DNA from: Gammaproteobacteria bacterium
GTDB taxonomy: Bacteria; Pseudomonadota; Gammaproteobacteria; GCA-001735895
DNA length: 64,000 nucleotides
Assembly: GCA_029862005.1 (NCBI GenBank)
Contig: JAOTYD010000007.1
Coordinates: 1 to 64,000, forward strand
Reading direction: 5' to 3'
The notes below the pieces were generated by a model. The model ran no database searches. It saw only the letters and a list, made by a program, of their open reading frames with translations, and was not told the origin of the DNA. Below are positions 41,847 through 45,474 of the stretch, piece after piece. Position 1 is the stretch's first letter; every line of letters starts with the position of its first letter. The translations under genes were made by a program, and so were the position numbers.

Positions 41847-41923
41847 TGGCGTCCCCGGCAGGAATCGAACCTGCAACCTACGCCTTAGGAGGGCGTCGCG
41901 CTATCCAGTTGTGCCACGGGGAC
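41847..41923 (-). tRNA. tRNA-Arg (anticodon CCT)
   Basis: Read on the minus strand, the 77 bases give a full cloverleaf. The acceptor is GTCCCCG paired with CGGGGAC, with discriminator G and encoded CCA. The D-arm region is tggcacaactggatagc. The anticodon stem is acgcc/ggcgt around loop ctcctaa (anticodon CCT), and the T-arm is GCAGG-TTCGATT-CCTGC. It decodes AGG. No intron and no integrase next to it. Confidence 0.97.
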
Positions 41924-42034: not shown

Positions 42035-43033
42035 TTACTCCTGGTAGTAATAGTCGTACTTGACCAGCAGTTTGCGCATGAAATCCCAGGCCTCGTTGTA
42101 AGTCAGGCCGCTGTCATCGGGGATGATGATCTTGACGTAAAGATTTGCACCCTGTTCGCGTTTCAGTTGCGCCAGGCGAGTTTCGACTTCAGCCAGGCTG
42201 AGCCTGCTGAAATCCTTGTCGCCGGGTTGGCGGTAGCGAATTACGTTCCCGGATTCTCCCTTGACATAGTAGACTTCGGCAATGAACTTGCCCCTCGCGG
42301 TACGCGCGGGCTTGATTAATTCCTGATACTTGGACTTGACCGTTTCGTAGTCGCCTTTGAGCGTCAGCAGCTGCTGGTTATAGGATTCGATTTCCTTGTT
42401 CAGTAGCTGCTTGTCCTGTGTTAACTGCGCGATACTCTGTTGTTGACGAGTGCTGGATTCGGACAAGCCGGCAATCTGCTGGCGCGCGCTTTCGAGCTGT
42501 GTCCGGGCTTGATCGCTTTCCAGTTGCTGTTGAGACATCCGTTGATTCAATTCGGCAATCTGTTGCGACAAGGCCTGGGATTGTGCGTTCGCGGCGTCGA
42601 TTTCGAGACCGGCCGCTTCGAGTTGTGACTGGGATTGCTGCACCGTGAATTGCAACTCGGTATTTTGCAGCTCTATCGAGGCAATTCGGGTTTCCTGCTC
42701 ACGTATTGCGGTTTGCGCAAGATCAAGCTCCTCCTCTTTCTTCAACAGGCGCAGCCGTAAAATAGAGTTACTTTGTTCGGCATTGGCAAGACGTTCTTCG
42801 AGCGTCGCGTTTTCCAGCGTTGTCGACTCGATCATCTGCGACGCTATTTGTTCTGCCGTAATGCTTTCCTGCAGTTCTGCGACCAGCTGCCAGTTGCGCA
42901 CGACCAGCAGGCTGGTTGCCATCAGGAAAATCATCGTGATCACCATCATGATGTCGGTGAAAGACGGCCAGAAGCTGTTTTCGCCGCCAATCCCCGCGTG
43001 GCTGCCGCCGATAGATGGAAAGCCAGCATCCAT
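42035..43033 (-). CDS. ExbD/MotB-like protein with long coiled coil
   Basis: The 332-residue protein has one N-terminal membrane helix at residues 27-46. Asp27 in WPSFTDIMMVITM sits where MotB, ExbD and TolR carry their proton-binding aspartate. Residues 50-240 are an uninterrupted Gln/Glu/Leu-rich coiled coil. A small C-terminal alpha/beta domain (about 245-332: LAEVETRLAQL, LYVKIIIPDDSGLTYNEA) resembles the periplasmic domain of ExbD. There is no OmpA peptidoglycan-binding domain. Its partner is the ExbB/MotA-like gene six bases upstream in the transcript. The pair is probably a proton-driven inner membrane motor; what it acts on is unknown. Confidence 0.75.
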   Translation of the reverse strand: MDAGFPSIGGSHAGIGGENSFWPSFTDIMMVITMIFLMATSLLVVRNWQLVAELQESITAEQIASQMIESTTLENATLEERLANAEQSNSILRLRLLKKEEELDLAQTAIREQETRIASIELQNTELQFTVQQSQSQLEAAGLEIDAANAQSQALSQQIAELNQRMSQQQLESDQARTQLESARQQIAGLSESSTRQQQSIAQLTQDKQLLNKEIESYNQQLLTLKGDYETVKSKYQELIKPARTARGKFIAEVYYVKGESGNVIRYRQPGDKDFSRLSLAEVETRLAQLKREQGANLYVKIIIPDDSGLTYNEAWDFMRKLLVKYDYYYQE

Positions 43034-43039
43034 CGGTCT

Positions 43040-43981
43040 CTAACGCTCGCTGCCGAGCGTTGGCAGCCGAAAACCTTCACGCAGTATTTGTTTGATGGCC
43101 TCCATCTCGTGGTTCAGGTTGTCGATTTGCTGCTGGTTTGCGTCGATTGTCTGCTGCAGCGAAACGGCGGAGTCATGGTATAGCTGCTGGGTCTTTTTCA
43201 TGTTGTCGGTAGCGAAAATGACCGATTTGATCAAATCACCCATCTTGTGCAGGATATCGTCGCCAGAGCGCACGTACCGGGGTAGTAGATAAACCGAGGT
43301 CAGGTGTTCAACTCCGCTGAGAAAATGCGTTTGCACGTCATTCAGACGCGTATAGAAGTAGCCGAATATGCCATAGGCGACGATGGCGGTAATGGTGGTT
43401 GAAAGCGCGGTTGACATACCGGAGATCACCAGTCCCATACCGCCAAGGCTGGCATCGGCCGAGTCGATCAGGTCGGACGCACCCAGTAATGCAATCGACA
43501 GAGAAAGTATGGTGCCGAAAACACCGGTCAGGATTAGAATATTATTGATATAACGAATTAAGCCAAAATGCGTGGCTTCATCGGCGTTTAACATTGCCGC
43601 GAGCGCGCCATGGTTGATTTCACCGTTTGCCTTCTGGATAGAGCGCATCGTTACATGCCGCTTGGCAACAACCGAATTGGCCGGGAGGCCCTCCATGAGA
43701 TCAGGCTTTAGCGAGTCGACATTATTTACAAAAGCAGCGATGGTGGCTTCTTCACGACGATAGCGCAGCAGGTTATAAAAAATATTACCAAGCCCGATAG
43801 TCAGTAGCCCCAGGATCGTACTATTGATCGCAATCCCGATATTGGTCAGCTGGTTTTCAAAGTAAAACGGGTAGATCAGATCAAAATTAAGCGCGATCAG
43901 TATGATCACCGCGATTACAACGACACTGAACTGGGTAATGATCTTGGAGCTGAGACTGGTATGCAGACGCTGAACTTCCAT
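43040..43981 (-). CDS. MotA/TolQ/ExbB-type proton channel protein
   Basis: The 313-residue protein has hydrophobic segments at about residues 15-38, 45-68, 145-167 and 178-208. The last two (TGVFGTILSLSIALLG; GMSTALSTTITAIVAYGIF) match the conserved helices of the MotA/TolQ/ExbB family, including the channel-lining threonines. The C-terminal 70 residues are a predicted coiled coil (QQTIDANQQQIDNLNHEME). It is first in a two-gene operon with the coiled-coil ExbD-like gene. No TonB, TolA, OmpA or flagellar gene is near, so it is not assigned to those systems. Confidence 0.78.
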   Translation of the reverse strand: MEVQRLHTSLSSKIITQFSVVVIAVIILIALNFDLIYPFYFENQLTNIGIAINSTILGLLTIGLGNIFYNLLRYRREEATIAAFVNNVDSLKPDLMEGLPANSVVAKRHVTMRSIQKANGEINHGALAAMLNADEATHFGLIRYINNILILTGVFGTILSLSIALLGASDLIDSADASLGGMGLVISGMSTALSTTITAIVAYGIFGYFYTRLNDVQTHFLSGVEHLTSVYLLPRYVRSGDDILHKMGDLIKSVIFATDNMKKTQQLYHDSAVSLQQTIDANQQQIDNLNHEMEAIKQILREGFRLPTLGSER

Positions 43982-44106: not shown

Positions 44107-45474
44107 CTAGTGCGTGGTTTTGCGCAGATGATTGATCAGGTCGATCTGGGTAATCAAGCCGTAAAAGGTATCGCCATCGGCGATGATCGCAACCTTGTCT
44201 TCCTTGAACAGCGCGACGATGTCATCGATGCTTGCGGTTGGGGAGACTGTCTCGAGGCGGGTTACCATGACCTCGGCAACTTTCATCTGGAAGTTATCCT
44301 CGTCTTCGTAGATGCCGAGCAGAATATCGGACTCGTCTATTAACCCGACGATATGCCCATCGTCGACAACAGGCAATTGTGACACATCGAACATGCGCAT
44401 CCGTTTATAGGTCGTGAGCAGGTTGTCTTCGGAGGTGACGGTAACGACATCGCCGCTATCCATTGGCCGCGCGATAATGTCCCGCAAGTCACCGTGGCTT
44501 TCCCGTTCCAGCAAGCCCTGGTCGGCAAGCCAGGAATCGTTAAACGACTTGTTCAGATACTTGTTACCGGTGTCGCAGGCAAAGGTGAGTACCCGCTTCG
44601 GCGTGGTTTGTTCGCGACAATAACGCAATGCGGCTGCCAGCAGCGTCCCGGTAGATGAACCCGCGATAATGCCTTCCTTGCGCAACAGTTCACGCTGAGT
44701 TTGAAAGGCCTCCTTGTCGCTGATTGAATAACCTTTCTTGACCAGGCTGATATCGCAAATCGGCGGCATGAAGTCTTCGCCTATACCTTCGACCAGCCAT
44801 GAACCTGCCTTCGGTGTATGCCCGGTGTTAATCGTTTCAGCAAGAATCGAGCCTTCCGGATCGGCAACGATCATTTCACAACCGGGTGCATGCTCGTGAA
44901 AATACCAGCCAAGTCCGGTCACGGTCCCGCTCGATCCTACACCGACCACCATGGCATCGAGCTTGCCATCCATTTGCCGCAAAATTTCCGGTCCAGTATC
45001 GACTCGATGGGTTTTTGGATTGTTGGGATTCGAAAACTGGTCGATGAAATAAGAGTTCGGGATTTCGGCCGCGAGGCGCTTGGCATAGTCCTGGTAATAC
45101 TCGGGGTGGCCTTTCTGCACATCCGAACGGGTCAGGCGCACGTCGACGCCCATTGCGCGAATGTGACGTATCTTGTCCGGACTCATTTTGTCCGGAATGA
45201 CCAGGATCAGCTTGTAACCCTTTTGTGCGGCAACCAGACCGAGTCCCAACCCGGTATTCCCCGCGGTTGCTTCGATGATCGTACCGCCGGGCTTGAGTTT
45301 ACCTTCTTCCTCGGCGGCCTCGATCATGGTTACCGCGATCCGGTCCTTGATTGAACCCCCCGGATTTTCCGATTCCATTTTTATGAACAGGTCACAAGGG
45401 CCGGTATCAAACTGCTTGAGTTTCAGAATCGGCGTATTGCCAATCAGTTCAAGTACAGAATTATAGATCGTCAT
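44107..45474 (-). CDS. cbs: Cystathionine beta-synthase
   Basis: CBS condenses serine (or O-acetylserine) with homocysteine to cystathionine, the first step of reverse transsulfuration. The 455-residue protein has the PLP fold-type II catalytic core with the lysine in NPGGSIKDRIAV, ATAGNTGLGLG, VGSSGTVTGLGWYF and AGSSTGTLLAAAL. Two CBS domains follow at about residues 335-455 (VTVTSEDNLLTTYKRM; ETVSPTASIDDIVALF). The extra CBS pair distinguishes it from CysK/CysM. It is the last gene of an operon CGL-enolase superfamily-CBS. Confidence 0.93.
   Translation of the reverse strand: MTIYNSVLELIGNTPILKLKQFDTGPCDLFIKMESENPGGSIKDRIAVTMIEAAEEEGKLKPGGTIIEATAGNTGLGLGLVAAQKGYKLILVIPDKMSPDKIRHIRAMGVDVRLTRSDVQKGHPEYYQDYAKRLAAEIPNSYFIDQFSNPNNPKTHRVDTGPEILRQMDGKLDAMVVGVGSSGTVTGLGWYFHEHAPGCEMIVADPEGSILAETINTGHTPKAGSWLVEGIGEDFMPPICDISLVKKGYSISDKEAFQTQRELLRKEGIIAGSSTGTLLAAALRYCREQTTPKRVLTFACDTGNKYLNKSFNDSWLADQGLLERESHGDLRDIIARPMDSGDVVTVTSEDNLLTTYKRMRMFDVSQLPVVDDGHIVGLIDESDILLGIYEDEDNFQMKVAEVMVTRLETVSPTASIDDIVALFKEDKVAIIADGDTFYGLITQIDLINHLRKTTH

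Follow-up and report, generated by a model that had tools for sequence, protein, structure and literature searches.

Two adjacent genes, here called A and B, lie on the minus strand of the window, by which we mean the whole 64,000-nucleotide stretch analysed (positions 1 to 64,000 of contig JAOTYD010000007.1, our C7, of a gammaproteobacterial genome). A is upstream of B, with 6 nt between the open reading frames. An earlier note on this DNA had described a compact two-gene operon of a channel and an Asp27-bearing partner, and both frames are indeed found there. The features of the locus are as follows.

43040..43981, minus strand: gene A, 313 aa, predicted MotA/TolQ/ExbB-type proton-channel subunit in a clade of its own
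43511..43513, minus strand: codon of A Thr157, aligned with TolQ Thr146 (equivalent of ExbB Thr148), invariant in 58 sequences
43394..43396, minus strand: codon of A Thr196, aligned with TolQ Thr179 (equivalent of ExbB Thr181), invariant in 58 sequences
43061..43084, minus strand: C-terminal LREGFRLP motif of A (residues 300-307) with an invariant GFR, closing a cytoplasmic helix whose length is nearly constant
42035..43033, minus strand: gene B, 332 aa, putative axle subunit with a transmembrane aspartate, a coiled coil and a C-terminal head
42896..42973, minus strand: transmembrane helix of B (residues 21-46) with the FWPSFTD motif, matched to the ExbD transmembrane helix by hhalign at E 2.3e-4
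42953..42955, minus strand: codon of B Asp27, invariant, aligned with the ExbD/TolR aspartate and by homology probably proton-carrying
42314..42895, minus strand: predicted coiled-coil arm of B (residues 47-240), its length varying by whole heptads across the family
42038..42313, minus strand: head domain of B (residues 241-332), TolR/ExbD-like in fold and the most conserved part outside the transmembrane helix

A cysteine synthase/cystathionine beta-synthase-type gene (44107-45474) flanks the pair on one side, and a tRNA-Arg gene (41847-41923) and an oxidase-type ORF lie on the other.

At the N terminus of the A protein are two hydrophobic helices; a cytoplasmic loop follows, then a further two transmembrane helices and a long C-terminal helix. 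The window protein matches PF01618 at E 0.008, below the curated cut-off, and the ZorA2 profile at E 7e-6; among its relatives, 47 of 58 match PF01618 at E<=0.01. Profile comparison of A with ExbB/TolQ (hhalign, E 1.3e-5) aligns the two pore threonines, and Thr195 is likewise invariant in the 58 sequences. A structural model of A (pLDDT 83) matches chains of ExbB, TolQ, ZorA/ZorAB and PomA in Foldseek, mostly with probabilities of 0.9-1.0. As judged from the modelled channel fold, the pore threonines and the adjacent aspartate-bearing partner, A belongs to the MotA/TolQ/ExbB proton-channel superfamily. In a tree with ExbB/TolQ, MotA, ZorA and PRK09039-type channels, A forms a single clade (support 100/99) and does not group with ExbB/TolQ; the sister group of the clade is uncertain because of long branches. 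The GFR motif of the tail, held at a near-constant distance from TM4, is likely a cytoplasmic docking or assembly motif. In two genomes A lies at the end of open frames of 813 and 827 residues, which we considered as a clue to a fusion and set aside, as the N-terminal parts have no Pfam family and look like chance GC-rich read-through.

Residue 27 of B is an aspartate within SFWPSFTDIMMV. In the published motor the essential residues are ExbB Thr148 and Thr181 and ExbD Asp25 (PMC12905483). The aspartate of FWPSFTD in B and Thr157 and Thr196 of A are conserved in all examined members that have the region, so a variable Asp27 or a lack of the pore threonines, which by the earlier note would have refuted the proposal, was not seen. 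Profile libraries return coiled-coil noise and a weak ZorB transmembrane match for B and nothing more, in agreement with the earlier view that B is not of the short ExbD form and lacks an OmpA domain. A Pfam family for the head was not found, and PF02472 (ExbD) is weakly matched by 4 of 56 B relatives. The model of the head (pLDDT 86) runs strand-strand-helix-strand-helix. Among the PDB matches listed for this model, TolR (5by4) leads in probability and TM-scores (0.77; 0.51/0.56; 3.0 A), while by Foldseek E-value it ranks 44 (E 0.51). Sequence comparison of the head with ExbD gives an hhalign E of 0.12, not significant, with a plausible register. Sequence searches of solved structures gave chance matches only, and a viral fold library gave no significant match to the head. 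The head is thus tentatively named TolR/ExbD-like for its fold, on the strength of the TolR probability and TM-scores. The earlier statement that an ExbD-like domain caps the coil is supported by fold, and not by significant similarity of sequence. The sequence result and the low rank of TolR by E-value count against the explanation we favour below.

No TonB, Tol, flagellar or Zorya genes were found near A and B, as had been noted before, and searches of the genome itself placed no ExbD/TolR, ExbB/TolQ/MotA, MotB or TonB gene on C7. The ExbBD genes, the TolQR-type genes, a TonB locus with two ExbD and the MotAB-type genes of this genome are all on other contigs; an ExbB, two ExbD and a TonB share contig C6, and the MotAB loci are on C2 and C16. 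The presence of separate Tol, Ton and MotAB genes elsewhere makes A-B an additional, stand-alone unit. It could be argued that B, as a lengthened ExbD, supplies energy to an unlinked TonB of the genome, so that a TonB- or TolA-type partner would still be needed. TonB is present on other contigs, and in general tonB often lies apart from exbBD (PMC12204202). Against this, candidate ExbBD genes on C6 are at hand for such a TonB, and A lies outside the ExbB/TolQ clade. The arm also speaks against it, since ExbD is not known to have an arm as long as that in B. We regard this explanation as unlikely.

The same genome carries a second, unrelated channel/axle pair on another contig (G000:C5:4000-12000; L242:3588-6796). 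There a 319-aa ZorA-like channel, on a long branch beside ZorA, adjoins a 770-aa protein that begins TQWASYSDLFMVLAFIFLV and continues into a very long coiled coil; the pair was assigned to no known family.

The A-B pair is real and widespread: it is conserved in many Gammaproteobacteria and in a second class of proteobacteria. Among the 57 nearest genomes, nearly all members of the genus, to which the Olavius algarvensis Gamma 3 endosymbiont belongs, and of the family carry both genes, almost always in single copy, and the absences are mostly incomplete assemblies or contig ends. A profile of A finds the gene in 55 of 369 genomes spread over the class, in 26 families by family code. The best match per genome is at E <= 3e-57 in those 55, and intermediate scores are absent from the 369-genome sample; by sequence, A is a discrete family. 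When the search was extended to the phylum, a second class of Pseudomonadota contributed f207 and f227, two families with E-values of 1e-84 to 1e-119. Remote channels of another type appeared as well, at E 1e-6 to 1e-12. A search of plasmids and phages gave no match.

B follows A directly and on the same strand in all complete gammaproteobacterial loci collected; the breaks in this pairing are contig-edge truncations and one B with an in-frame stop in a draft genome. The sole exceptions found are four genomes of one genus of the second class. In two (G438 and G588) nadD directly follows A, and in the other two (G432 and G618) a headless copy of B does; all four have an intact B with a head elsewhere. 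In the DNA around the distant B of G438, G432 and G588 there is no neighbouring A, and this B keeps the aspartate motif, the heptad phase and the head. Retention of both genes despite their unlinking argues for a functional pair. The headless copies beside A (L236:10207-10944 and L263:216-962) end in a charged tail, and each genome keeps a full B elsewhere. Not every copy of B has a head, then, which we count against the explanation favoured below. Co-loss of the A tail and the B head in one lineage was considered and dismissed, as A keeps GFRLP and an intact B is present elsewhere.

The neighbourhood was surveyed over 108 flanking genes at 30 representative loci. No conserved third gene was found among them; the commonest Pfam family, D-Tyr-tRNA deacylase, occurs 3 times. 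TonB, TolA, TolB, Pal or a defence module did not accompany A-B at any of these 30 loci. Constant company of that kind would have spoken against the stand-alone transducer of the earlier note, a reading that is supported here. The nearest neighbour is co-directional about half the time (15 of 28 on one side, 13 of 30 on the other). Recurrences of dtd, his genes, MlaC and a lipid A acyltransferase in the flanks are lineage-specific, and we rejected these genes as conserved neighbours. PADLOC gave three single hits of a generic kind in the flanks.

A Zorya-like anti-phage defence motor also has to be weighed, as A has a weak profile match to ZorA and the transmembrane helix of B one to ZorB. ZorAB itself has 5:2 stoichiometry and a long tail. 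Against ZorA, however, A reaches about 24 bits, where the best true ZorA proteins score 130-258, and it sits in a separate clade; on these two grounds we rejected membership of Zorya. B lacks the peptidoglycan domain of ZorB, and its long coil is in the axle rather than in the tail of the channel. Nor do single-copy presence almost throughout the genus and family, housekeeping neighbours, the lack of a defence module and absence from plasmids and phages suit a defence system. A defence role for the pair is highly improbable.

The arm of B, about 190 residues, is free of proline and cysteine and rich in Q, E and L. Its length was measured as a spacer between two independent anchors, the aspartate of FWPSFTD and the proline of the head motif. 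In the first 69 loci the spacer takes 20 distinct lengths, and these fall at 5 mod 7 in 62 loci and 2 mod 7 in 7, with no other phase (chi-square p 1e-12, related sequences not being independent). With 13 loci added from the other class, 73 of 82 are at 5, 8 at 2 and 1 at 6 mod 7, over a range of 173-572 residues. The 2 mod 7 class is what would be expected of one stutter, a loss of 3 residues or a gain of 4. Sixteen distinct lengths within one phase class require at least 15 whole-heptad changes, despite the kinship of the sequences. Hydrophobic residues recur at two positions three and four apart (a/d), in an equal register in the first, middle and last thirds of the arm. A heptad-locked spacer and a constant a/d register together point to one continuous two-stranded coiled coil, and we infer that the arm runs in a single fixed register from the membrane to the head. 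At its usual length of 22-35 nm it could plausibly reach across the periplasm.

Whole-heptad steps are expected of any uninterrupted coil between folded ends, and thus speak for rigidity and register and not for force transfer. In SMC proteins, function suffers when the heptad phase of a force-transmitting arm is broken (PMC5344682). The conserved phase would suit a rod whatever its purpose, including a passive one whose coil sets the distance from the inner membrane to the wall while the channel-like part is vestigial. Long coiled coils often serve as spacers of that kind. Across 26 families, however, the proton residues do not vary, the family reaches a second class, and arm length, which a spacer should conserve, is not conserved. 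We consider a passive role very unlikely.

In two B frames, of 623 and 705 aa (L136:10641-12509 and L138:8123-10237), the arm is 488 and 572 residues long, respectively, and keeps perfect heptad phase. If straight, these arms would measure 69-82 nm, too long for an ordinary periplasm. We count them against a reading of the arm as a radial rod, and thus against the explanation we favour.

The arm of B and the tail of A bear on a further alternative, a static or stator-like anchor. The coil and head would merely fix a gated proton channel to peptidoglycan, A would turn around B, and the GFRLP tail would act on a cytoplasmic partner, much as MotA acts on FliG. The TolR head binds peptidoglycan, as anchoring would have it. 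So does the MotB head (restated in PMC12905483). The tail of A, near-constant in length with an invariant GFR at its end, looks like a docking site. On the other hand, no gene for a cytoplasmic partner is conserved among the 108 flanking genes of the 30 loci, and a phase-locked rod of 22-35 nm is not needed for anchoring. Short linkers suffice for MotB and TolR to reach the peptidoglycan. An anchor is possible and, in our judgement, rather unlikely.

ExbBD and TolQR hand their energy to a separate TonB or TolA. We favour, as the reading that is probably correct, a self-contained proton-driven motor of the 5:2 type in which the B axle carries its own output arm and head and neither TonB nor TolA takes part. 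By homology, five A subunits would surround a B dimer, and Asp27 of B would carry protons past Thr157 and Thr196 of A. The two transmembrane helices of B would continue as an uninterrupted parallel coiled coil that ends in a paired TolR/ExbD-type head. A stiff, phase-locked rod could then deliver the motion of the motor to peptidoglycan or to an outer-membrane or periplasmic partner bound by the head; both the kind of motion, rotation or pulling, and the target of the head are ones we infer. A stronger version, in which two proteins make up a complete trans-envelope rotary machine with the B dimer as axle and drive shaft and torque passed to the wall or outer membrane, is, we think, less likely than not.

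The pair is of interest for several reasons. Wrap-and-pull and other models still compete to explain how the proton flow of 5:2 motors becomes work at the outer membrane (reviewed in PMC12905483). With a motor that has its output arm built into the axle and works without TonB or TolA, rotation could be told apart from pulling, and a natural, heptad-locked series of arm lengths makes that question testable. If the rotary version is true, heptad phase becomes a measurable constraint on how such motors deliver work. More generally, the pair is a widespread, apparently core envelope system, seemingly undescribed, that could reveal a new proton-driven envelope function. We found no paper naming it in a limited library, which is not proof of its being undescribed, and a pair with a coiled coil and a TolR-like head is not described in the available parts of PMC12505986 or PMC12204202.

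The closest known systems are ExbB-ExbD and TolQ-TolR (PF01618/PF02472), with which A-B shares the channel fold, the two pore threonines, the transmembrane aspartate, a two-gene core and, tentatively, a TolR-like head fold. In contrast to them, A has an extra N-terminal hydrophobic helix and a clade of its own, B has its roughly 190-residue coiled coil between transmembrane helix and head, the pair is not associated with TonB, TolA, TolB or Pal, and the window proteins fall below the Pfam gathering cut-offs. The MotA-MotB flagellar stator (PF13677, with an OmpA-like head) resembles A in its four hydrophobic helices, two of them before the cytoplasmic loop, and B in its transmembrane aspartate. 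Unlike MotB, B has no plug or OmpA domain; no flagellar genes are near, and A is in a separate clade from MotA. Zorya, discussed above, shares the 5:2-type pairing, a long helical tail and weak HMM similarity.

The PRK09039 'peptidoglycan-binding protein' and its ExbB-like neighbour (NF006542/NF006543), of alphaproteobacterial type, also consist of a channel and an adjacent partner with a WPxFxD-type transmembrane aspartate motif and a very long coiled coil. PRK09039 ends in an OmpA-type peptidoglycan domain, whereas B ends in a TolR-like head. B scores 13.2 bits against the PRK09039 NCBIfam model (cut-off 305), true members of that pair score 785-854 bits on NF006542, and PRK09039-type channels are distant, at about 31-38 bits on the A profile, and fall outside the A clade. 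Two loci (L240:4735-8127 and L241:7205-10302) with a channel and a PRK09039 coiled-coil/OmpA protein look like an analogous, uncharacterised transducer with another head.

A 2025 survey places the non-flagellar channels in a group of generic ion transporters, whose extensions are diverse and mostly unknown and include some very large periplasmic domains (PMC12505986). Pairs of TolQ-like proteins and TPH-vWA transducers were predicted in 2025 to be two-part motors whose aspartate-bearing axle also carries the output domain and itself transduces force (PMC12204202). At one locus (L239:3967-5673), cut off by the contig end, a distant MotA-like channel precedes a partner that has a short arm and a von Willebrand A-like stretch, and this pair resembles the published ones. 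The output of TPH-vWA proteins is a vWA fold; B has no vWA match and carries instead a long coiled coil and a TolR-like head.
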